Below, piece by piece: positions 6,233 through 34,611 of a stretch of 34,611 nt of DNA. The notes beneath the pieces were generated by a model. That model was given only the letters and a program-made list of their open reading frames with translations. It was not told the DNA's origin and ran no database searches. The translations under genes were made by a program, and so were the position numbers. The DNA lies in the IMG/VR virus record IMGVR_UViG_3300027736_000127, positions 1 through 34,611 of that record; one strand, written 5' to 3'. Within the stretch, counting starts at the first letter, position 1; each line of letters starts with the position of its first letter. The DNA comes from a virus.

Positions 6233-6335
6233 TTTTGTAATCCATTCCGCCGCGCTAGGCGGCTTTAGTTCGTCGGGTCGGTTCGCTTGAACCATGCCCG
6301 CATATATAAGGTACATCAAATCTATACCTTTGCAA
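6233..6335 (-). promoter_or_regulatory. Degenerate promoter and type-1 leader (copy C)
   Basis: The -35 TTGCAA (6335-6330) is intact, but the -10 position after 16 bases reads TACCTT, so the promoter looks weakened. Hairpin 1 (6274-6300) has inner stem GGTTC/GAACC, changed on both sides relative to the other copies, so pairing is kept. Hairpin 2 lies at 6250-6262, 17 bases before the ATG at 6232. Confidence 0.6.
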
Positions 6336-6397
6336 GTAGACTTTGCAATATTTTGCAAAATAAATTGCGTACTGGCGCTTTTTTAGAAGTGCCCTTT

Positions 6398-7989: not shown

Positions 7990-9960
7990 TTAAATACAAA
8001 GATTATCCGCGCAAGTAAACCCCTTCAACCATTGCCAAGTTACATAATCACCATCGGGGTACGGCAAGTCTAGCAAAACATTAACCGCTTCGGCGCGGGC
8101 TTGGCATTGGGCTTGATCTTTACCGTCCGTACATTCATACAATGAACCATCGCTAAGAACTAAGCAACAAGCGCCCGTGTATTTTATGCATTCGGTTGCG
8201 CAATTAAGCGGCGTTTCCCATTTGATAGTTGCCGCGTCCCATTGATTTAATGCTTTTATTTGCGCATCGGCTATGGTTTGTTGAGCGCGGCATTCGCAAT
8301 AAGTTGCATTTGCGCAATAGTAATTTGTACCCGCTAAATCTTGAATACAACATTTTTTAACGGGCACTTGATTATTTGTATTTACGCAAGATGCACAATT
8401 ATCGGCTTGATTTCCAAAAGTTACTTCTGTAAATATGCATTGCGGGTTAATGTTTGCGGTAATAGCATTTTGCCGCAATAGTTCCGCCCAATATACATAC
8501 CGATCTTCAAACACTTCTACGGTAGTGGCTACGCTTGAGCATTCTAAAACATTACCCGCGGTATCTTTAATACACCACTTTTCCATTGTCACGGTATCGG
8601 GATCAAGCGGGCAATCGCCACAACTATTTTCGGGGGTAATTATGTATTGATAAACATCGGGGTCGGGGGGTTGTTGATCTACAATAGCCGATGCCGCCGC
8701 CCGTGTTATTGAAGCGTAACAAGTTTTAACTGGAGTATTTGGGGTTTGTGTTTTTCCAGTATAAACGCAAAGCCCTACATAAACACTTGTACAACCATCG
8801 CAAGTATAATCGCCGTAATCACCATTCCCTAGCGCCGTCCACCGCGTATATTCCCCATACCATCCGCGCCCCACATTGCAAGTATTGCGCCGCGTTATAC
8901 TGCAAGATTCGCCGCCACCTAATCCACTACTATAAACGCAACACCCCCACGGTTCAGTACACTTTACGCCGTATTCACCTAGCCCGAATCCACAATCACA
9001 ACAATCATTCCAACATTGCGAATATTTTGGTACTTGCGTATTTGGTTTTAAAGCATTGTCCGAACCAACTAAAACAATAGTTTCGCTGGCGGTTTTTTGT
9101 TGGTTTATAGTTTCATCATACGGCGGGGTAAACCCCCAATTTCCCGCGCAAACATTTACTTTCTTTTGGTGGTTTTTGTATTTATATGTATAGGGTTGAA
9201 CCGTTAAATTTCCGCAACTAGCGTTTGTTGATCCAGTACCAGCCACGGAATATTTCCTTGTATGTATATCAATTCTATATCCGTATTCGCCCGAACTTAT
9301 ACTATGTTCATTTGTTTCAACTTGGGAAGTAATATATGCTTGCGCCGCGCCTAGCGTCCATGCCGCGTATTGCGCGCCTACAAAATGGCTTGTACAACCT
9401 AAAAACGGTATATATGCAATTCCCGCATATGTTCCTAGTAAAGTGGCTTCATAGTTTGTTGTACTTTCGTAGTGATAGCAAGTAGGGCATGGATGCTCTA
9501 CGCTACCGCAAAAATAATGTGCAGTTCCGTAAACTATTCCATATATTCGTCCGTATTCTTTAATATTTTCCACTACATAAAAAGACGATTGATCAGTTTC
9601 GGATTTTTTCCATCTACTCTTTCTCCCCGATCCCCCATATGGGTTATATAAATCATGCAAACCACAACCCGCCGCCGACATTTCGGCAAATGATTTATCT
9701 TGACAATGTTTACAAAGCGGCGGCGAAGGTATCCACGGCGCGCTTAGTTCGCAACAAGGTAATTTTGTAGGATTAGCCGCGGTAAATGTAGCAAGTTGCG
9801 CGGGCGTAATATATTGCCCGCCCGTAGCGGTACACATTGCGGCGTTTGCTATCAAACCATAGTTAGTTGCATACGCCCTACCGCAACCGTAGCAACATTC
9901 GCCGCCGTCCGTAGGGGGTGGAGTTACACCGCAACAACATTTTCTATTATTCGGCGGCAT
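7990..9960 (-). CDS. Large cysteine-rich protein, putative tail adhesin
   Basis: This 656-aa protein contains about fifty cysteines, many as CC or CxxC, beginning almost at once (KCCCGVTPPP, ECCYGCGR). The C-terminal third contains related units of roughly 50-90 residues. Each starts with a C/CC + hydrophobic + D motif (KWCIKDTAG near 467, KCCIQDLAG near 552, GACCLVLSDG near 604) and ends with a cysteine after an aromatic-rich helix. No signal peptide is seen. Its place after the tape measure and two tail genes suggests an exposed tail-tip or receptor-binding protein held by disulfides. Function is inferred from position only. Confidence 0.55.
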   Translation of the reverse strand: MPPNNRKCCCGVTPPPTDGGECCYGCGRAYATNYGLIANAAMCTATGGQYITPAQLATFTAANPTKLPCCELSAPWIPSPPLCKHCQDKSFAEMSAAGCGLHDLYNPYGGSGRKSRWKKSETDQSSFYVVENIKEYGRIYGIVYGTAHYFCGSVEHPCPTCYHYESTTNYEATLLGTYAGIAYIPFLGCTSHFVGAQYAAWTLGAAQAYITSQVETNEHSISSGEYGYRIDIHTRKYSVAGTGSTNASCGNLTVQPYTYKYKNHQKKVNVCAGNWGFTPPYDETINQQKTASETIVLVGSDNALKPNTQVPKYSQCWNDCCDCGFGLGEYGVKCTEPWGCCVYSSGLGGGESCSITRRNTCNVGRGWYGEYTRWTALGNGDYGDYTCDGCTSVYVGLCVYTGKTQTPNTPVKTCYASITRAAASAIVDQQPPDPDVYQYIITPENSCGDCPLDPDTVTMEKWCIKDTAGNVLECSSVATTVEVFEDRYVYWAELLRQNAITANINPQCIFTEVTFGNQADNCASCVNTNNQVPVKKCCIQDLAGTNYYCANATYCECRAQQTIADAQIKALNQWDAATIKWETPLNCATECIKYTGACCLVLSDGSLYECTDGKDQAQCQARAEAVNVLLDLPYPDGDYVTWQWLKGFTCADNLCI

Positions 9961-14844: not shown

Positions 14845-15270
14845 TTAGACCGTAGCAATAGTGATTGCGCCCGTGATGCGTAGGGTATAAGTTGCGGTAA
14901 CTTGTTTGTCAACTTCCGCGCCAATAGATACCTTCACAATGTACGCGTTGAAAGTAAATTTTGGCGAACCCGTAACCGTGCCCATAGACAAAACAAAGGT
15001 AGTCGCGTTTGTGGTTGTTTGTCCACTCTTGGGCATTGCCATATATTCAGCGGTAATGGTTTGGGAAATTACATTTATCGCCAAGGTAACAGTACCCGAC
15101 TCACGCGTTCCCAAAACATAGTTCTTACTTGTATCACCTAGCCCCGTGGTATCGATGGTCGCGGCTTGTATCGAATCCATGCCCGCGCTAGTAATTACCC
15201 CGCGGATTGTATCGACATTGCCGCCCGAAGCGGTCAGAGTTGTACCAACTGGAGAAACTGGAGTAGGCAT
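14845..15270 (-). CDS. Tail tube-like protein, paralogue 2
   Basis: This 141-aa beta-rich protein is of the gpV/tail-tube type. GVITSAGMDSIQAATIDTTGLGDT (near 24-47) leads into NYVLGTRESGTVTLAINV, and the C-terminus DKQVTATYTLRITGAITIATV closes the barrel. It shares the same pattern and a near-identical C-terminal strand with the adjacent 137-aa protein (15289-15702), from which it presumably duplicated. One of the pair is likely the main tube and the other a minor tube or tail-tip adaptor. A good ribosome site (AAGGAAAT) precedes it. Confidence 0.75.
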   Translation of the reverse strand: MPTPVSPVGTTLTASGGNVDTIRGVITSAGMDSIQAATIDTTGLGDTSKNYVLGTRESGTVTLAINVISQTITAEYMAMPKSGQTTTNATTFVLSMGTVTGSPKFTFNAYIVKVSIGAEVDKQVTATYTLRITGAITIATV

Positions 15271-15288: not shown

Positions 15289-15702
15289 TTATGCGGTTGC
15301 CGCGGACGCAACCGTGATTGCGCCGCTAATTTGAATGGAATAGTTTACGGTAACTTGTTTATCAATTTCAGCGTTGACGGTTGTCTTAACTATGTACCCA
15401 CTAAAACCCCAAGTAGGAACGAAAATAGTTGCCGCGCCGCTACCAAATTGAACTACAAACGAAGTTGTAGTTGAATTGCCGCTAGTCGGTTGAACTACCG
15501 CGGTAGACAAATCGACATTGCAAGAAACATCTACCGTGCCCCCGTCGAAAGTGCCCGTTACAAATTGCTTTTCTGTATCACTCAATCCAGTTACATCTAT
15601 TTCGGCAACGGACGGGCTTATACCGATATTGGTTACCGTGCCCGCGATTGTGCCCGTAGTGAACCTTGATTTATAACTTGAAATACTTGTTCCAGCCGCC
15701 AT
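15289..15702 (-). CDS. Tail tube-like protein, paralogue 1
   Basis: This 137-aa protein is of the same fold as its neighbour. GTVTNIGISPSVAEIDVTGLSDT (near 21-43) is followed by KQFVTGTFDGGTVDVSCNVD and the C-terminal strand DKQVTVNYSIQISGAITVA. It comes first after the tail terminator gene, the standard position for the major tail tube protein. It is therefore my preferred candidate for the tube, with the protein at 14845-15270 as second. AGGATAAA precedes the ATG at 15702. A third related protein lies at 21161-21523. Confidence 0.8.
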   Translation of the reverse strand: MAAGTSISSYKSRFTTGTIAGTVTNIGISPSVAEIDVTGLSDTEKQFVTGTFDGGTVDVSCNVDLSTAVVQPTSGNSTTTSFVVQFGSGAATIFVPTWGFSGYIVKTTVNAEIDKQVTVNYSIQISGAITVASAATA

Positions 15703-18048: not shown

Positions 18049-19392
18049 TTACGCCTTGATTGCTAACGCATTGAACGCCGCAAGTTGAGAAACATCCGTA
18101 CCATGACGCGCAAACGCAAAGAATCCAGTTTGGTTATTCGCTAGGTATACTTCCTTGGCTACCTTCACGCTAACGCCTTCGCGTTCGCCCAAATGGAAGT
18201 AATCAAAGTTGCCAAACATAGCCATTACGCGCTTAGTGCCCGCCGCTGGATATGTTAAACCGTCATTTACACACACTACGGGGTAGCCTAAAAGGCGGTC
18301 GGGTTCGCCATCTTGTAGCCGTCCATCGCCAAGTGACCAAGCAAACGGCGCGTAGCCCGTTTGGGTTGAGATAACGCCCGAAAGTAATTGGCGAATTTTG
18401 TAGAACATGGAATCACCCATGATCCACTTAGCCCCATCGCGATATTGACGCGGCAACGCGGCAATGCAGTTTAGTAAATCGGCTTGCACAATTACATTTG
18501 AAGTTGCGGTGACTGTTTCCGTTCCAGTAGTTGCACCGCGTACAACGCCCACAAAATTATAAATACCCCACGGCATCGCCGTACCCGTTCCAGTACAAAA
18601 CTTTCGTTCCTCGGCTTCGCCCATTGAACGCCCAATTTGACTAGCAAGAACGCTTTCTACATTGAACGCCGCGCCGCGGCTTGGGGAATCGGCAAGAAGT
18701 TCGTTAGATACCTTTGTGAAATATCGAAGCGTGTACGGCTTTAATACAACTTGCGCAAATGCGGGCGTTACTTCAGTTGCCCCGCTTGCTTCCGCAATGT
18801 AGGAACTTGCGCCGATTGTATCCTCATAGATAACTTCGGTTTCAAAAGTTCCAAGCGGTACGGTATTCATAATTTGGCGCATTGCGTTAACTTGGAAACG
18901 CTTAGTAATCAGCGTGGATAGGAACTCGGTAGCGGGCAAATATCCGCCTTCGGCTTCCACTCCCTCATTCAAGCCCGCGCGTTCTTCACGGCTCATTTCA
19001 TGCGTACCCGTACGCAAATACTTACCCCAAGTAGAGCGGTACTCATCACCCGCGAAAAAATTAGCCAGTTGATCGCCGCGCCGTCCCGTTGTTTTGGTGG
19101 CGCTCATCGTTTCAATTTTCTTACCTACGGCGCGGGTGGCTTGCGCGGTTGCGTCCAATAGGCGGTAGTGTTGGTCGCGCATTGAAATAAGCGCGCTCAA
19201 TCGCTTGTTCATGCGGTCATATTTTTCTTCTGTAGCGCCGTCCATTGGTTCGCCCGCGGTTTGTGACGCGGCAACCATTGCTTTAAGAGTTTCGTAAATC
19301 TTGCCGATTTGCTCGGTGATTGTGCGAATATCTAAAGTTTCTTTTTGCTCGACTGGATCGGACGGGTTTTCTACATTTGTATCGTTAGCCAT
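18049..19392 (-). CDS. HK97-fold major capsid protein
   Basis: This 447-aa protein has two parts. Residues 1-100 are a charged helical delta/scaffold region (KETLDIRTITEQIGKIYETL..). From about 110 comes the HK97 fold: GVEAEGGYLPATEFLSTLI (144-162), an E-loop region with EASGATEVTPAFAQV, FTKVSNELLADSP, the axial helix region SMGEAEERKFCTGTG, LLGYPVVCVND, and the C-terminal YFHLGEREGVSVKV segment. The delta region would be removed by the protease encoded nearby. A strong Shine-Dalgarno (AAAGGAAAA) precedes the start. A second capsid-fold gene lies directly upstream. Confidence 0.92.
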   Translation of the reverse strand: MANDTNVENPSDPVEQKETLDIRTITEQIGKIYETLKAMVAASQTAGEPMDGATEEKYDRMNKRLSALISMRDQHYRLLDATAQATRAVGKKIETMSATKTTGRRGDQLANFFAGDEYRSTWGKYLRTGTHEMSREERAGLNEGVEAEGGYLPATEFLSTLITKRFQVNAMRQIMNTVPLGTFETEVIYEDTIGASSYIAEASGATEVTPAFAQVVLKPYTLRYFTKVSNELLADSPSRGAAFNVESVLASQIGRSMGEAEERKFCTGTGTAMPWGIYNFVGVVRGATTGTETVTATSNVIVQADLLNCIAALPRQYRDGAKWIMGDSMFYKIRQLLSGVISTQTGYAPFAWSLGDGRLQDGEPDRLLGYPVVCVNDGLTYPAAGTKRVMAMFGNFDYFHLGEREGVSVKVAKEVYLANNQTGFFAFARHGTDVSQLAAFNALAIKA

Positions 19393-19406
19393 TTTTTTCC
19401 TTTAAA

Positions 19407-20531
19407 TTAAACTGTTCCATGCCGCAAACCATAACCGCTATGAGCATCCATTAAATCGCCCGCGCAACGGTAACTACATTGAATCACGGTTCTATTATTC
19501 TCGGCTAGGCTTTCCGTGTCTAGTGTTACTTGCAACGGTTGAGAAAAATGTATATACGCGGATAAATCTACCAACATCATCCACATAGCGTTCGCCGTAG
19601 TCATAACGCCCATGCCCTCACTTGTATAAATGGGTTTGCCTAGCCAAGCGGTAGTAAGTTCGTACGGCGCATTTTCCACAATTTGTAGCGGGTTAGAATT
19701 GCGCGTTTCAAAACCTAGGTTAGCCATTAATTCTTCAATGCCGCCTTTGTTTCCACCGCCGCCACCGCCATAGCCGCCCTCGCCGCCGCCGCCGCCTAAT
19801 AAAAGTTCCGTTTGCGTATTTGTAACAATTGGGCTAGCCGTTCCACCCGTACTAACTATGCCGCCACCCATTGATTTACCCGCGCCATAGCCGCCGCCAT
19901 GCGCGCCACCCGATTGTGTAAACATTCCGCCCGAACCCATTTTGCGTTGAATAGGAAGCGTGACCAAACTAGCGCGCCCTTCCATATCCCCGAATGATTG
20001 ATAGCCAAGTTTTCCGAATACCCAAACGGCGCGGTCGCGAACTACATTTTGTAAATTAGCCAAACAAGTAAAACCGCTATGTATTGGCGTTCCCGCGTCC
20101 ATTGCGGCGGGATCACTAAAAGCATCCGCAAGCGTAAAGCGGCTAGATGAAACTAATTTTGTACGGATATCGGTGATAATTTTATCGCCAACTACTTCTA
20201 AAATTTGACCGCTCAACCTATCGGCAATTAATTTTAGAACGCTGGAATCATAAATCAATTCGTTACTAATCGTCACATTGGCGCGATATGTTTCAAGAGT
20301 TTTTTCTACCAATCCAATCACGGGTCGAAAAGTATCAATGCTTGCTTGCGCGGCATTTTCAGCGACTACCGCTACCGTGCCCGTGGTTTCCGCCGCAATG
20401 AACGGCATTTTAAAAGCGCGCGTACCCGTTGCATGACTAACCAAGTTCAACGGAAAAGAATCATATAAACGCACCGCCGCAAGTTCCGCAATTGTTTTTG
20501 CGCCTAGGGCGCTACTTACATTCAATGCCAT
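19407..20531 (-). CDS. Second HK97-fold capsid protein with Gly-rich insertion
   Basis: This 374-aa protein is of the HK97 capsid type but lacks a delta domain. KMPFIAAETTGTVAVVAENAA (41-61), VEKTLETYRANVTISNELIYDS (75-96) and a DKIITDIRTK segment match the capsid core. The C-terminus VDLSAYIHFSQPLQV, then NRTVIQCSYRCAGDLMD, matches the end of the fold. Residues about 199-264 are a very glycine-rich insertion (GGAHGGGYGAGKSMGGG, EGGYGGGGGG) in what would be a surface loop. It may be a minor capsomer (for instance pentamers), a decorated variant, or the true main capsid beside 18049-19392. It starts two bases after the protease gene stops. Confidence 0.8.
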   Translation of the reverse strand: MALNVSSALGAKTIAELAAVRLYDSFPLNLVSHATGTRAFKMPFIAAETTGTVAVVAENAAQASIDTFRPVIGLVEKTLETYRANVTISNELIYDSSVLKLIADRLSGQILEVVGDKIITDIRTKLVSSSRFTLADAFSDPAAMDAGTPIHSGFTCLANLQNVVRDRAVWVFGKLGYQSFGDMEGRASLVTLPIQRKMGSGGMFTQSGGAHGGGYGAGKSMGGGIVSTGGTASPIVTNTQTELLLGGGGGEGGYGGGGGGNKGGIEELMANLGFETRNSNPLQIVENAPYELTTAWLGKPIYTSEGMGVMTTANAMWMMLVDLSAYIHFSQPLQVTLDTESLAENNRTVIQCSYRCAGDLMDAHSGYGLRHGTV

Positions 20532-20532
20532 G

Positions 20533-21120
20533 TTATGCCTTTTTAATGTTAGCCAATGGATTTACCCAATTTGAAATGAACACTTTAGATTTTTTTTGCG
20601 CCAGTATCGAATCAATTTGGTTCTTGCATCGCATAGAAATAACCGCTTTACTATTCGCGGGAAACGCAACTATAGAAACTTCATGTAGAGAAATTTTATT
20701 TATATCGCGGAACAATTTACCGTTACGCATTTCAATAGTATCATCGTCAACGCAAAATCCAAAAGACATTGAAGTTACCGTTCCAGTTCGTACCAACTCA
20801 ATAGCGGTTCGACCGTCCGCCGTATCAATCGGGTAGATTTCGGTTTGTAATCCCTTTTCATCTACGGATAATTTTAGCGAACCCGTAAGAGTTCGCGCAA
20901 TGATTCGACCCGTATCGTGGTTTAAGAACGCGAATACATCGGGCGCGCCTTCTAGCGTTGAATTAAACGCGCCGCGTTTAATTGTTTCGGTCACGCCGTC
21001 AATTTCATACGGCTCATCAAAAGTTGAAGCGTAGCCCGTCAATACCGCGGCGGCATTCTCGCGGGTTTCCAAAAGCATTTGGCTAGAACTTCGATATTCA
21101 ATTTCACGCATTGCGGGCAT
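20533..21120 (-). CDS. Prohead (capsid maturation) protease
   Basis: This 195-aa protein is of the HK97 prohead protease (S78) type. LTGYASTFDEPYEIDG (27-42) leads to ETIKRGAFNSTL (45-56). The catalytic His68 is in FLNHDTGRIIART, and the catalytic Ser is in VTSMSFGF (115-122). LHEVSIVAFPAN then matches the conserved end. It would cleave capsid delta domains during maturation. A start at Met4 is also possible. It lies between a tail-tube-like gene and the first capsid gene. Confidence 0.9.
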   Translation of the reverse strand: MPAMREIEYRSSSQMLLETRENAAAVLTGYASTFDEPYEIDGVTETIKRGAFNSTLEGAPDVFAFLNHDTGRIIARTLTGSLKLSVDEKGLQTEIYPIDTADGRTAIELVRTGTVTSMSFGFCVDDDTIEMRNGKLFRDINKISLHEVSIVAFPANSKAVISMRCKNQIDSILAQKKSKVFISNWVNPLANIKKA

Positions 21121-21160: not shown

Positions 21161-21523
21161 TTAAGTTATTGCGCCCGTTATTAAAATTTCAAGCGTTGCC
21201 GTAATCGGTTCATCTTTACCCGCGGTCACATTGCAAGAAGTTAAAAAACCGTTGAATGTAAAAGTAAACGCGCCCGCCCCGCTTCCAAATGTAAGAGTAA
21301 ACGCGGTTGAAGCAACGCCGCTAGCGGGTATTGTAGGTTTGGCTTCGCATAAAACTACCATGTTCACGCTTCCGCCCTCGCGCTTGCCAATTACATAGGT
21401 AGAAATCAAAGCGTTCATGGCGCTTATATCTATTGATTTACAAGCGCCGCTAGCAAAACTAATTGATTGCACCACGCCCGCTATGTTTGTCATGCCGCTA
21501 CCCGTGCTAAGAAGTACCGCCAT
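21161..21523 (-). CDS. Tail tube-fold protein inside the head cluster
   Basis: This 120-aa protein is clearly related in pattern to the two tail-tube-like proteins. ACKSIDISAMNALISTYVIGKREGGSVNMVVL (near 27-58, quoted in part) parallels their DVTGLSDT.KQFVTGTFDGGTV region, and the end EPITATLEILITGAIT matches their closing strand. Its location between portal and protease is odd for a tube protein. It may be a decoration or stabilising protein that uses the same fold, as some head decoration proteins do, or a displaced duplicate. Confidence 0.65.
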   Translation of the reverse strand: MAVLLSTGSGMTNIAGVVQSISFASGACKSIDISAMNALISTYVIGKREGGSVNMVVLCEAKPTIPASGVASTAFTLTFGSGAGAFTFTFNGFLTSCNVTAGKDEPITATLEILITGAIT

Positions 21524-21526
21524 TTT

Positions 21527-22813
21527 TTACGCCTTGCGTTTCTTGGATACTGGCGGTTTTTTTGCCCTTATTGGTTCATCGGGCATTGCATCGGGTTCAT
21601 CTACAACGGGCGGGCTTACATTTAAACCGCCTAGCGCGTTGCTAGTCGGGATCATGTTCACGGGTTGTAGGTAAACATCGCCTTGTTTGCCTATCCCGTT
21701 GCGCCCGATTTCGGCGCGGATTTCGTTCACGCTTAACCATCCGAATTGGCGGGCTACTGAAAAAGTTTGATAGCGTTCAATTTGGGAAGTTTTGAGCATG
21801 GGATCAAACGAAATTTCCGTACTAAATTCCGTTTCATCGCGGCGCAATAATTTGCGGGCGGCTTCCGATTCAAGCCGCGCCGCCCATGAAGATAGGCAAC
21901 CGCTTACAAATTGTTGGTTTGCTTGTTCGGCGCTGGAGTAGGATTGCTTTTGACCTATGCCAATCACGCTTGGCGGTACTGAAAAAATACTACAAATTTC
22001 TTCACGCTGGAACTCGCGGCTTTGTAACCATTGGGAATCTTCGGGGCTTAGACTTATTGCTTGCCATTTTAAACCGCCTTCAAATACGGCTACATTTCCC
22101 GCGCTACCTACGCCCTTCATTCTTCCTTCCCAACTTTCCCTAATCCGTTGCAATGCTTCGGGGCTAAGTTCTTTGTCTGTAGTCAACGCGCCGCTAGGTC
22201 GGGACGCGTTGCGGTAATACGCCGCGCCGAATGCTTCGCTAGCAAGGGCAAGCCCTACGGCTTGGCGCGCAAGTGAAATAGGCGAATAGCCAAGAATACC
22301 GTCACTACTCAAGCCCATCAAATGAAATACATCGTAGGAACTGTAAACCGTGCTTTGTCCCGTTGCGCCCGAATAGTTGTACGCAATTTCGCCACTTGGT
22401 AGCCGTTGAACTTGCATTAAATCGGGGCGCAAATAATGTAGCCCAACGGGTCTACCCGCTTCGCGCTGGATTAGTGAATAGCCGTTTCCAGTTAGCGCCG
22501 CGCTCATTAACATCAATTCGCGCCAAACCATCGCGGAACATTCGGGGTTTGGTTCGCGGCTCAATAGGAAATGCAACGGATGATCTTTAGCAATAACGCG
22601 CCCGCCCGCGGAATGTGACATTACAGACCAAGGTAATTTTGCAATGTTTGTAGCAATGGCTTGAACGCAAGAATGAACGGTAGTACAAGTAAGCGCCACT
22701 TGCGGCGTAATATTTTGCCCCGTATCGGAAAATGTGCCCGTAAATACTTGGACGCTACCTAGCGGCGCGCCCGCGTTTACGCTTGATTTAAATCTTTTGG
22801 TTAGCCAATTCAT
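21527..22813 (-). CDS. Portal protein
   Basis: This 428-aa HK97-type portal starts at ATG 22813, overlapping the terminase stop by four bases; an in-frame TTG lies two codons upstream. Landmarks are VHSCVQAIATNIAKLPWSV near 48-66 (quoted in part), DHPLHFLLSREPNPECSA, LTGNGYSLIQREAGRP and LHYLRPDLMQVQR. ILGYSPISLARQAVGLA, the helical stem and a SREFQREEICSIFSVPPSVIG segment follow. It forms the dodecameric DNA channel at the head vertex. The C-terminal tail is Pro/Lys-rich and contains the scattered A-tract motif (KKPPVSKK). Confidence 0.93.
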   Translation of the reverse strand: MNWLTKRFKSSVNAGAPLGSVQVFTGTFSDTGQNITPQVALTCTTVHSCVQAIATNIAKLPWSVMSHSAGGRVIAKDHPLHFLLSREPNPECSAMVWRELMLMSAALTGNGYSLIQREAGRPVGLHYLRPDLMQVQRLPSGEIAYNYSGATGQSTVYSSYDVFHLMGLSSDGILGYSPISLARQAVGLALASEAFGAAYYRNASRPSGALTTDKELSPEALQRIRESWEGRMKGVGSAGNVAVFEGGLKWQAISLSPEDSQWLQSREFQREEICSIFSVPPSVIGIGQKQSYSSAEQANQQFVSGCLSSWAARLESEAARKLLRRDETEFSTEISFDPMLKTSQIERYQTFSVARQFGWLSVNEIRAEIGRNGIGKQGDVYLQPVNMIPTSNALGGLNVSPPVVDEPDAMPDEPIRAKKPPVSKKRKA

Positions 22814-24507
22814 AGCCAAATCATGCCCCGCTTTTCGTAAACGCTGGCGGCTATTTTTTCGTCATGCAATGACGCGCCTAGCGCCACTACCGCCGCTACA
22901 ACGGGATCAATTTTTTCATGGCTACGGCGCTTGCTAGGTCGGGCGTTGCCCGCGTGATCTTGTTCAACAACGCAATTCGACATAGCCCACGCCATTACGG
23001 GCGAACCATCTTGTACCAATGTTTTACCCGTTACCGCGCGCTCAAACATTCGGGTCGGCGTAGATAGATTTAAAAAAGATTGCGGTACGCGCACTACTTT
23101 AACCCCCGCGGCTTCCAAATCATTACCAACATTTTGCGCATTGTATGGGTCATAGCCTACCATTTTAACCTTATTTTTTTGCGCCAGTAATTTTACTTGC
23201 GCGAGTATGTAATTGTAGTCGGTAGAATCACCTTCTGTAACGGTCAACCATTTACGCCGTTCCCATTCTAGGTAAGGTACGCCGTCACGCCTAGCGCGAA
23301 TTGCAACGCCCATTGCGGGCGCGTAGTTCCATGATTTTAAATACATCTTTTCGCCGTCCAACCATACCGCGGCAATACTGGACAAATCATTGGTTTGTCC
23401 TAAATCAATTCCAAGGTAGCACGGTAAATCTTTTAATGTGGCTTCATCAAATTCAGCGCGGCAAGCGTCCCAATCGGACATTTTCAACCAACGGCTAGAA
23501 GCGGTAATGTGTTGGCATAAATAATAGGTACGGAATGGCGTTTCAAAACTAGGTTGATCATCCGCGCGTTTGGCTTCTTCAGCGTACCAACTTAGGGGCA
23601 CTATTGAACCGATTGACGGGTTAGCAAGTTTCCAAGTAGAAGGTAGTTTCCAATCGGCTTCTTCGGGCGCGTAATGCAAGCACGGCAAGAAACTAGAATT
23701 TTCTATCACGCCTTCACAAATCTTTAGCCCGTACTGGAATAAATCAAATTCAAGTGAAGTTCGTAGCGTCCCGCTTGTAGTAATAGAAAGCATAAGCGGT
23801 TGAGTACGCGCGCCCATTGAAGTTAGTACCGCTTCCCACAATTCGCGCCGATCTTCCATAGCATGAATTTCATCGGCGATACAAGCCGAAACATTTAAAC
23901 CATGCGCCCCCATTGAATCATTTGAAAGGATTTTATACGAACCGAATACGGACGGGCTTGTTATGCGCGATTGATATATTTCTACAAGCGCCTTTAGTCG
24001 CGGCTCTTGTAGGCACATTGATTTAGCGCGGCTTAAACATAGGCGCGCTTGTTCACGGTCGCGGGCTATCCCAATCACTTCGGGCGTAGGTTCATCGTCC
24101 GCAATCAAATGGTAAAGAGAAATTGCCGCCGCCAATTCGGTTTTGCCCGCCTTGCGCGGAATTAAAACATGGGCTTGCCGATAGCGGCGCGTACCGTCCG
24201 CGCGTTTCCATCCGTATAAATTGGCTACTAAATAAAGTTGCCACGGCATAAGTATAAACGGCTTACCCGCATGAACGCCTTGCGTGTATTTACAAGTGGC
24301 TTCAATAAAATCTACCGCGTGTTTTGCCGCTACGCCGTTCCATATTGCGCCCTCGGCGGTTTTGATAGCGTCATATGCGGGCAAAAAATTAAATTGATCG
24401 GGCTTATCCCAATTTATTTTTTCGCCAGTACCCGCCGCGCGCTTGGGCTTACGCGTTTTCTTCGGCGGCGCGGCGGCTAAAGACTGTATCAATTTCTGTT
24501 TTTTCAT
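22810..24507 (-). CDS. terL: Terminase large subunit
   Basis: This 565-aa packaging motor is related to the Lambda_terminase/YmfN-type large subunits of HK97-like phages. The ATPase Walker A is PRKAGKT (117-123), the Walker B is ACIADE (208-213) and the coupling motif SITTSGT lies at 241-247. The nuclease half contains LGIDLGQTNDLS (365-376, catalytic Asp368), a further conserved region around VKMVGYDPYNAQN, and KIDPVVAAVVALG near the end. The ATG at 24507 lies inside the small-subunit gene, a 59-base overlap; no better start is visible. Confidence 0.95.
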   Translation of the reverse strand: MKKQKLIQSLAAAPPKKTRKPKRAAGTGEKINWDKPDQFNFLPAYDAIKTAEGAIWNGVAAKHAVDFIEATCKYTQGVHAGKPFILMPWQLYLVANLYGWKRADGTRRYRQAHVLIPRKAGKTELAAAISLYHLIADDEPTPEVIGIARDREQARLCLSRAKSMCLQEPRLKALVEIYQSRITSPSVFGSYKILSNDSMGAHGLNVSACIADEIHAMEDRRELWEAVLTSMGARTQPLMLSITTSGTLRTSLEFDLFQYGLKICEGVIENSSFLPCLHYAPEEADWKLPSTWKLANPSIGSIVPLSWYAEEAKRADDQPSFETPFRTYYLCQHITASSRWLKMSDWDACRAEFDEATLKDLPCYLGIDLGQTNDLSSIAAVWLDGEKMYLKSWNYAPAMGVAIRARRDGVPYLEWERRKWLTVTEGDSTDYNYILAQVKLLAQKNKVKMVGYDPYNAQNVGNDLEAAGVKVVRVPQSFLNLSTPTRMFERAVTGKTLVQDGSPVMAWAMSNCVVEQDHAGNARPSKRRSHEKIDPVVAAVVALGASLHDEKIAASVYEKRGMIWL

Positions 24508-32114: not shown

Positions 32115-32219
32115 TTTCTCAACTCGTTTCTACCGCGCGTGGCGGCTCTTGTTTTGTCGGGTTGAATCTTTTGATTCATGCCCGCATGAATACTTTACAT
32201 CAATTCCCTACCTATGCAA
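32115..32219 (-). promoter_or_regulatory. Promoter and type-1 two-hairpin leader (copy D)
   Basis: The promoter has -35 TTGCAT (32219-32214), a 16-base spacer and -10 TAAAGT (32197-32192). Hairpin 1 is at 32158-32184. Hairpin 2 (32133-32145) lies 18 bases before the ATG at 32114. Upstream spacer bases differ from copies A and B but agree with copy E. Confidence 0.7.
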
Positions 32220-32280
32220 GTAGAGTTAGTCATATTTTTGAATATTTCGTAGATTTATTTTTGTGGCGGTTTTGCCCCAT

Positions 32281-33306: not shown

Positions 33307-33567
33307 TTACTTGGCGTTCTTGGGCATCGGTATAAGTTTCAATGTCATCATATCAATAGCCATTGGCGGCAAGTTCTTATTGTGCTTAATGTTTTTTGCC
33401 ATTTGTTTTTTGCCCTCATTTAAGATATGTATTTTCAATGCGCGCGAAGCAAATTTAAATTGGGGAATGTTTGTAAATACGCCGCTAGCATTTTGCCTAC
33501 GGTTTTCATTTCTAGCCCATGCTTCATATACCCATTCTTGTAATTCAATCTTTAAGCGTTTTGCCAT
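33307..33567 (-). CDS. Hypothetical small basic protein (86 aa)
   Basis: This is the complete copy of the gene truncated at the left window edge (1-198). It is lysine- and asparagine-rich: KRLKIELQEWVYEAWARNEN at the start, FASRALKIHILNEGKKQM in the middle and IDMMTLKLIPMPKNAK at the end. There is no recognised family. It is a single-gene cassette with leader hairpins upstream and a stem with an A-tract loop downstream. A small host-takeover or nucleic-acid-binding role is possible from its charge only. Confidence 0.7.
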   Translation of the reverse strand: MAKRLKIELQEWVYEAWARNENRRQNASGVFTNIPQFKFASRALKIHILNEGKKQMAKNIKHNKNLPPMAIDMMTLKLIPMPKNAK

Positions 33568-33632
33568 TTCATCAATCCGTTTCTTCCGCGCGTGGCGGCT
33601 CTTGAGTTTAGTAACACTTGCGAAGTTGCAAG
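33568..33632 (-). promoter_or_regulatory. Type-2 structured leader
   Basis: Right-end copy of 199-263. Hairpins lie at 33617-33632 and 33586-33598, the latter 18 bases before the ATG at 33567. The first hairpin loop differs from the left copy while the stem is kept. Confidence 0.6.
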
Positions 33633-33667
33633 GCGGCGCGCCGTCCAGTTCGGACGGCGCGCGCGCC
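33633..33667 (-). terminator. Terminator-like GC hairpin
   Basis: An 11-bp stem (33636-33646 with 33652-33662) lies after the stop of the 33676-33957 gene, the right-end copy of 267-293. The U-tract is weak. Confidence 0.55.
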
Positions 33668-33675
33668 TAGTTACT

Positions 33676-33957
33676 TCACGCGCCGCGCTTGCTTGCTTCC
33701 CATTGTTCGCCAATGTAGGCGGTGGCTTTTTCTAATTGCTTCAACGCAAACCGTTTTGCGCCCGCTTCAGTACGAAAAGCCCAACGGAATTTAATAACCC
33801 GATCTTCTTGGCAACAATGCAAAGTAGGCAACTCGCGGCGCATTGCGCCACCGAAAAAGAACCCGCCATTCTTGCCAACAACCGCGGCGTATATTTGTTT
33901 TTCTGTTTTTACTGTTTTGATTGCGTTGTCTATTCCGTAAGTGTTTGCGTAGTTCAT
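33676..33957 (-). CDS. Hypothetical small protein (93 aa), second allele
   Basis: Same length and frame as 307-588, with about 80% of residues shared. The conserved centre is GFFFGGAMRREL..LHCCQEDRVIKF (broken here for length); the ends differ (MNYANTYG here, MKTANTYG there). The family is unknown. The differences are mostly substitutions with no frameshift, so both copies look functional. It has its own promoter and leader (copy E) and a terminator-like stem. Confidence 0.7.
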   Translation of the reverse strand: MNYANTYGIDNAIKTVKTEKQIYAAVVGKNGGFFFGGAMRRELPTLHCCQEDRVIKFRWAFRTEAGAKRFALKQLEKATAYIGEQWEASKRGA

Positions 33958-34062
33958 TTTCTCAATCCATTTCTACCGCACTCGGCGGCTCTTGTTTTGT
34001 CGGGTTGAATCTTTTGATTCATGCCCGCATGGATACTCTACATCAATTCCCTATCTATGCAA
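33958..34062 (-). promoter_or_regulatory. Promoter and type-1 two-hairpin leader (copy E)
   Basis: The promoter has -35 TTGCAT (34062-34057), a 16-base spacer and -10 TAGAGT (34040-34035). Hairpin 1 is at 34001-34027. Hairpin 2 (33976-33988) lies 18 bases before the ATG at 33957. Confidence 0.7.
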
Positions 34063-34123
34063 GTAGACTTTGCCATATTTTTACAAATTTAGTAGATTTA
34101 TTTTTGTGGCGGTTTTACGCAAT

Positions 34124-34147
34124 GGCGGGCGGTTTTACCCGCCCGCC
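34124..34147 (-). terminator. Terminator-type hairpin after DUF932-like gene
   Basis: A 9-bp stem GGCGGGCGG/CCGCCCGCC (34124-34132 with 34139-34147) corresponds to 32281-32304. The left-end counterpart at 772-799 is a different version of the module with a U-tract. Confidence 0.5.
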
Positions 34148-34165
34148 GTCCAGTACGGGCGGGGC

Positions 34166-34611
34166 TTAGACTTCCACCGCTTCAGATTCAACATAATCCG
34201 CCGCGCCATGCAAGCCTACTAGCCCGTCCATCATGCCCGTTAGCCGTGAGTTGCGCGCGGGGCTAGCGGTTAGGCTTGGGGATTGCTTCTCGATTTCGGT
34301 AAAGCAATTAAATAATTTCCAAGCCGTAGGGCGCGTATAGGCATCATCGCCAAATTCCGCGGCGCGTTCCGCGAATCCGCCGCTTCCGTCCGCGCGCGTC
34401 CATTCATGGAGTACGCGCGGTAGTTGCGTAGTATTGATTGCGCGGCGTTGAATGGCGCGCACCATGAAATCATGCGCCACATAGTCACCTTGCCGCCCTT
34501 CGGGCAAGGCGTACGCCTTGTAGGCTTCCATGCGTTCCGTTTCGGTAGCCATTGCTTGCGCCATGCAACCAAACGCTTTAGATACCAAGCCCGCCCAATC
34601 ACGCGAAATAA
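34166..34611 (-). CDS. DUF932-like protein, C-terminal half (5' beyond window)
   Basis: The frame is open to the window edge and matches residues about 150-297 of the 817-1710 protein almost exactly; among the few differences are the last residues (YVESEAVEV here, YVDADAVEV there). The coding sequence continues past 34611, so its start is not seen. If the genome is circular, this and 817-1710 are the same gene from two strains. No independent start inside the window is needed. Confidence 0.75.
   Translation of the reverse strand, partial: ISRDWAGLVSKAFGCMAQAMATETERMEAYKAYALPEGRQGDYVAHDFMVRAIQRRAINTTQLPRVLHEWTRADGSGGFAERAAEFGDDAYTRPTAWKLFNCFTEIEKQSPSLTASPARNSRLTGMMDGLVGLHGAADYVESEAVEV

Follow-up and report, generated by a model that had tools for sequence, protein, structure and literature searches.

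Why would a siphophage carry two capsid genes beside a single prohead protease? The window analysed here, one virus record of 34,611 bases, contains tandem ORFs at 18049-19392 and 19407-20531 that a preliminary description had identified as HK97-fold capsid genes. Both ORFs occur at exactly these positions, with one correction to that account, which gave no strand: both lie on the minus strand. In transcriptional order, the module begins with the small and large terminase subunits, the portal, a small tail-tube-like gene, the prohead protease, the second capsid protein (P0002, here cap2) and the major capsid protein (MCP, P0001). These are followed by adaptor and head-closure genes, the tail terminator, two tail-tube genes, the tail chaperone and the tape measure, a gene order that is a siphophage-type structural module (Table 1). 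The protease had been described as the only one beside the capsid genes, and a single Peptidase_S78 match was indeed found, just upstream of them.

Table 1 Features of the head module and dispersed repeats in the window
Feature	Position	Strand	Basis
MCP (P0001), 447 aa, HK97 fold with N-terminal delta-like domain	18049..19392	-	Phage_capsid 3.3e-43; phrog_10 1.7e-51
HK97 core of MCP (residues about 149-447)	18052..18948	-	Pfam match 149-443
Delta/scaffold-like helical region of MCP (residues about 22-100)	19093..19329	-	Predicted helices 22-45 and 52-100; absent from cap2
cap2 (P0002), 374 aa, second HK97-fold capsid protein, no delta domain	19407..20531	-	Phage_capsid, HHalign, Foldseek, conserved pair
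Gly-rich A-domain insertion of cap2 (residues about 199-270; 30 Gly)	19722..19937	-	Shuffles; comparison with relatives and MCP
SNEL motif, conserved, cap2 residues 89-92, before the spine helix, common to MCPs	20256..20267	-	Alignments
Prohead protease, Peptidase_S78, single copy in window	20533..21120	-	Pfam 9.3e-39; phrog_80 3.4e-46
Portal protein	21527..22819	-	Phage_portal 1e-96
Terminase large subunit	22810..24507	-	phrog_9 6.8e-142
114 nt direct repeats	626-739, 2230-2343, 6267-6380, 32151-32264, 33994-34107

MCP and cap2 share the HK97 core but not the delta domain

MCP is a conventional major capsid protein of the HK97 type that carries a delta-like coiled coil at its N terminus. It matched the Pfam Phage_capsid and PHROG major head protein families, was related to the gene transfer agent (GTA) major capsid protein Rcc01687 (phmmer, 4e-22), and was as much as about 29% identical to many MCPs of sequenced phages. 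The two N-terminal helices were the only confident part of its structural model (pLDDT about 61-77), and together with the family match they bear out the earlier assignment of both a delta/scaffold domain and a capsid fold to this protein. A delta domain of the HK97 gp5 type is thus present in MCP and absent from cap2. In two related contigs (L038 and L041), MCP has about 50 extra N-terminal residues and lies alongside a protease ORF of about 590-610 codons.

The relationship of cap2 to this fold is more distant and was assessed in several ways. The protein itself scored 32.0 bits against Phage_capsid (PF05065; E 1.1e-7), above the curated cut-off of 24.2, and nine of ten diverse cap2 proteins matched the same family at E < 1e-3, six of them above the cut-off. 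A profile built from 28 cap2 sequences aligned by HHalign to the MCPs of the clade (98%, E 2.2e-13), covering the entire core, and equally to unrelated phage MCPs (98%, E 1e-13). The cap2-MCP alignments spanned 263-265 columns at about 13-16% profile identity and preserved the canonical order of E-loop, spine helix, A domain and P-domain strands. The aligned portion of MCP extended from about residue 150 to the end, and because the alignment starts only there, cap2 has no delta domain and hardly an N-arm. Accordingly, the E-region anchor is preceded by only 14-47 residues in every cap2 protein, compared with 130-187 before the core in MCPs. A PDB sequence search with cap2 returned only matches to Gly linkers and chance matches, and none were returned with the cap2 profile.

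The AlphaFold models of both proteins were of low confidence (mean pLDDT 41 for cap2 and 35 for MCP). Since MCP, an obvious HK97 protein, failed in the same way, the poor models reflect a shallow alignment, and low confidence for cap2 is no argument against the HK97 fold. The confident part of the otherwise poor cap2 model, comprising a spine helix at residues 96-128 and P-domain strands (pLDDT about 70-83), corresponds to the HK97 P domain. When this low-confidence model was searched with Foldseek, all 50 PDB matches listed were HK97-fold shells, the best among them at E 2.8e-3 (prob 0.99). The earlier description had allowed that structure prediction might place cap2 outside this fold; the family, profile and structural matches instead agree with its proposal of an HK97 core without a delta domain, and the N-arm is nearly absent as well. 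We regard it as near certain that cap2 is a structural capsid subunit, a diverged second HK97-fold protein.

The ribosome-binding site of MCP (AAAGGA) is better than that of cap2 (AAAAGG), which is weak evidence that more MCP may be made.

The capsid pair is conserved and co-inherited

A search for the pair in related contigs had been suggested, and it was fruitful. Contigs were collected from portal and terminase sequences first, and then with cap2 and MCP profiles. cap2 was found in 38 IMG/VR contigs, some of which are near-duplicates and one of which is a copy of the window genome, and 35 of them continue past cap2, every one with MCP as the next gene. The group's longer contigs measure about 34-40 kb. 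Wherever the contig reaches, the protease immediately precedes cap2, except in L047-L049, where it has been relocated behind the tail-tube genes (e.g., L047:12996-13988) and cap2 and MCP are still together.

Outside this group, relatives encode the protease directly before MCP and have one capsid gene only. Siphophages with a single MCP from the same family (Streptococcus, Gardnerella and Erysipelothrix phages and gut phages) share the order terminase-portal-protease-MCP with the window group, but MCP follows the protease with no cap2 between. Among 50,697 sequenced phages, tblastn with the window cap2 and three others as queries identified no cap2 homologues; this search covered homologues of cap2 rather than every possible capsid pair. 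Two scans of genome contigs revealed no prophage bearing the pair, only two ordinary single-MCP loci, and in a pattern scan with single proteins the only close relative was the genome copy mentioned above, with 100% identity across 15 kb. In the literature that was searched, largely open-access papers, we found no other two-MCP siphophages.

In 21 contigs, the trees of cap2 and MCP contained the same main groups, and their pairwise distances were correlated (Mantel r 0.72; 0 of 5000 permutations as high), with cap2 distances about three times longer than those of MCP. Both genes are under purifying selection: pairwise dN/dS lies between 0.13 and 0.44 in cap2 and does not reach 1 in MCP. Congruent trees and low dN/dS indicate that the pair is older than the diversification of the clade and has been inherited jointly as a functional unit.

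Large loop insertions occur only in cap2

The glycine-rich stretch of cap2 had been described as an insertion of about 65 residues, and the comparison with relatives agrees. The insertion is 60-70 residues long and lies in the A domain; the richest 66-residue window of cap2 contains 30 Gly, a count that none of 20,000 protein shuffles reached (maximum 22), which rules out chance low complexity. The interval from the conserved strand before the A-domain helix to the LGxP strand is 128 residues in the window cap2, compared with 95-117 in its subclade relatives, 34-45 in other cap2 proteins and 41-54 in MCPs. Because this interval is so much longer than in other cap2 proteins and MCPs, the stretch is a real A-domain insertion. 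Within the subclade, the inserts range from almost pure Gly (L031 and L032) to Pro/Gly/Glu-rich (L021 and L024), which suggests that selection may act for a flexible exposed linker and not for sequence.

Other lineages have inserts at a different site. The cap2 proteins of L038, L041, L043, L047, L049 and L050 contain E-loop inserts of about 80-100 residues, so that large insertions are found in the two outward loops of the HK97 fold and only in cap2. Complete MCPs have nearly constant loop lengths (80-82 residues for E, 87-93 for the spine and 41-54 for A), whereas those of cap2 are hypervariable. In L043 and L050, the E-loop insert matched tail-fibre and baseplate families (phrog_9370, 4e-8 to 5e-7, and phrog_967) and was 47% identical over 47 residues to a Leptospira phage tail fibre protein (E 3e-6). 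Surface display of these tail-fibre-type inserts is therefore likely, judging from their sequence relationships, and by analogy the Gly-rich loop of the window cap2 may be displayed as well. Adhesion by a displayed loop, as proposed previously, is plausible given the two outward insertion sites and the tail-fibre-type module of two relatives; for the Gly-rich loop itself it is possible.

Together, the conservation of the pair, its co-inheritance, purifying selection on both genes and the restriction of large insertions to cap2 strongly support the division of labour between two HK97-fold proteins that the preliminary description had put forward.

A proposed role for cap2 at the capsid vertices

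The best reading of this division, by analogy with known two-protein shells, is that cap2 probably forms the pentameric vertices and MCP the hexamers. MCP, as the sole carrier of a delta (scaffold) domain and a long N-arm, would nucleate and drive procapsid assembly and fill the hexamers, while cap2, consisting of the mature core only, would be co-assembled as pentamers at the 11 non-portal fivefold vertices. The protease would then remove the delta domain of MCP. If the shell is T=7, about 55 copies of cap2 would be present beside about 360 of MCP. With few positions to occupy and no hexamer lattice to satisfy, the A-domain loop and E-loop of cap2 would be free to accept insertions. The A-domain loop points towards the capsomer axis, and a flexible Gly-rich loop would cluster fivefold at each vertex. 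We infer the presence of cap2 in the virion, its vertex position, its surface display and these copy numbers.

An enlarged lattice, which had also been considered, is disfavoured and unlikely given that contigs of about 34-40 kb fall in the range of ordinary T=7 single-protein shells. HK97 and P22, with genomes of about 40 kb and T=7 shells, build both capsomers from one protein (PMC13185644), and thus a separate vertex protein is not needed at this genome size, a point against the vertex role proposed here.

Four other roles for cap2 were weighed. It is unlikely, though worth considering, that cap2 is a minor hexamer subunit, or occupies some quasi-equivalent positions, and serves mainly as a carrier of surface loops in the manner of the frameshifted T7 10B. 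Such a role would fit the insertions, which differ in kind, are found in cap2 alone at two outward loops and include a tail-fibre-type module, but the divergence of the two proteins makes interchange with MCP within one capsomer harder, and cap2 does not have the N-arm that links capsomers. Less probable again is a position outside the lattice, where cap2 would decorate or cement the shell, or would help assembly (by size determination or vertex nucleation) and be absent from the mature virion. Faster evolution, the missing N-terminal region and a gene adjoining the protease are all compatible with this, yet cap2 keeps a complete mature core (E-loop, spine and P domain) that a decoration protein does not need.

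Encapsulins likewise consist of an HK97 core that is poor in N-arm and without a delta domain, and cap2 might on that ground build its own shell, either a compartment resembling encapsulins or a small alternative head. This is very improbable, as cap2 matched Phage_capsid and no encapsulin family, is always tied to MCP in order and descent, and has no evident cargo-type partner gene. Finally, that cap2 is a former MCP decaying after capsid gene exchange, as a shorter and faster evolving gene in tandem might suggest, is scarcely credible and largely refuted by dN/dS well below 1 in every compared pair, open frames throughout, and retention in 38 of 38 contigs with a tree congruent with that of MCP.

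Comparison with known two-protein shells

The assignment of cap2 to vertices has its closest likeness in T4, where two genes of one phage encode HK97-fold proteins and the second has a much shorter N-terminal propeptide (PMC9958956, PMC3185693). The T4 pentamers consist of the vertex protein gp24, a probable duplication product with about 20% identity to gp23; it loses 10 N-terminal residues, compared with 65 in gp23 (PMC9958956). Like gp24, cap2 is the product of a separate gene, a diverged relative of MCP and of the HK97 fold. However, no T4 gp24 chains in the PDB were matched at E up to 10 with either P0002 or the cap2 alignment. In addition, gp24 has a propeptide whereas none is evident in cap2, and T4 is a large prolate myophage whereas the window genome has a length of 34.6 kb and a tail module of the siphophage type.

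The Ccm protein of SaPIbov5 is also an HK97-fold homologue of an MCP, being 24% identical to the phi12 capsid protein and found in pentamers only (PMC8569155). Its N-terminal delta domain of 87 residues is present and cleaved off (PMC8569155), in contrast to cap2, and a missing delta domain consequently does not by itself identify a vertex protein. The gene for Ccm belongs to a phage parasite, and the protein redirects head size, whereas in every contig cap2 is part of the head operon of the phage itself. Other minor capsid components carry displayed domains, including T7 10B, the T3 extended capsid protein and Peru-2 P2_50, the last at the eleven non-portal vertices (PMC13320782). In contrast to cap2, T7 10B arises from the MCP gene by frameshifting, and Peru-2 P2_50 has an Ig fold and decorates the shell rather than being an HK97-fold subunit of the lattice.

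Reviews describe small phages as using one protein for both capsomers and separate penton proteins as rare, with T4 as the model (PMC13185644, PMC3185693). Two-gene HK97 shells are thus already known, and the window group would be a new variant: a small siphophage lineage that encodes the pair in its own head operon, with a cap2 of no detectable similarity to gp24 in sequence and with large loop inserts in one subunit only. We tentatively propose that this widespread, uncultured lineage of about 35-40 kb may have split its HK97 shell into two genes, with the second subunit as a vertex display platform on which unrelated loop inserts (Gly-rich A-loops and tail-fibre-type E-loop domains) are swapped between lineages while the hexamer protein stays fixed. 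If true, this would be a second case within the head operon of a phage itself, in genomes roughly one quarter as large and with no sequence relation to gp24, and the group would test why a phage would split its shell. The contrast between fixed MCP loops and variable cap2 loops would allow a test of whether giving the vertices a subunit of their own releases surface loops for display, and the cap2 loops would mark natural insertion sites in the HK97 fold.

Other features of the window genome

The tail tube is likewise affected by duplication. Tandem tail-tube (TTP) paralogues at 15289-15702 and 14845-15270 are conserved in relatives, and a third TTP-like gene (21161-21523), found in the window genome only, lies in the head module between the portal and protease genes. 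Downstream of the tape measure gene, 7990-9960 encodes a 656-residue protein with 51 cysteines, for which a family search gave no match. The ends of the record are alike (1-1262 and 33370-34611; 88.7% over 1269 columns, gapped), and this imperfect redundancy is either a genuine duplication or the result of assembling circular-genome variants together. The 114 nt direct repeats are intergenic, and their five dispersed copies are 66-85% identical to the reference copy.
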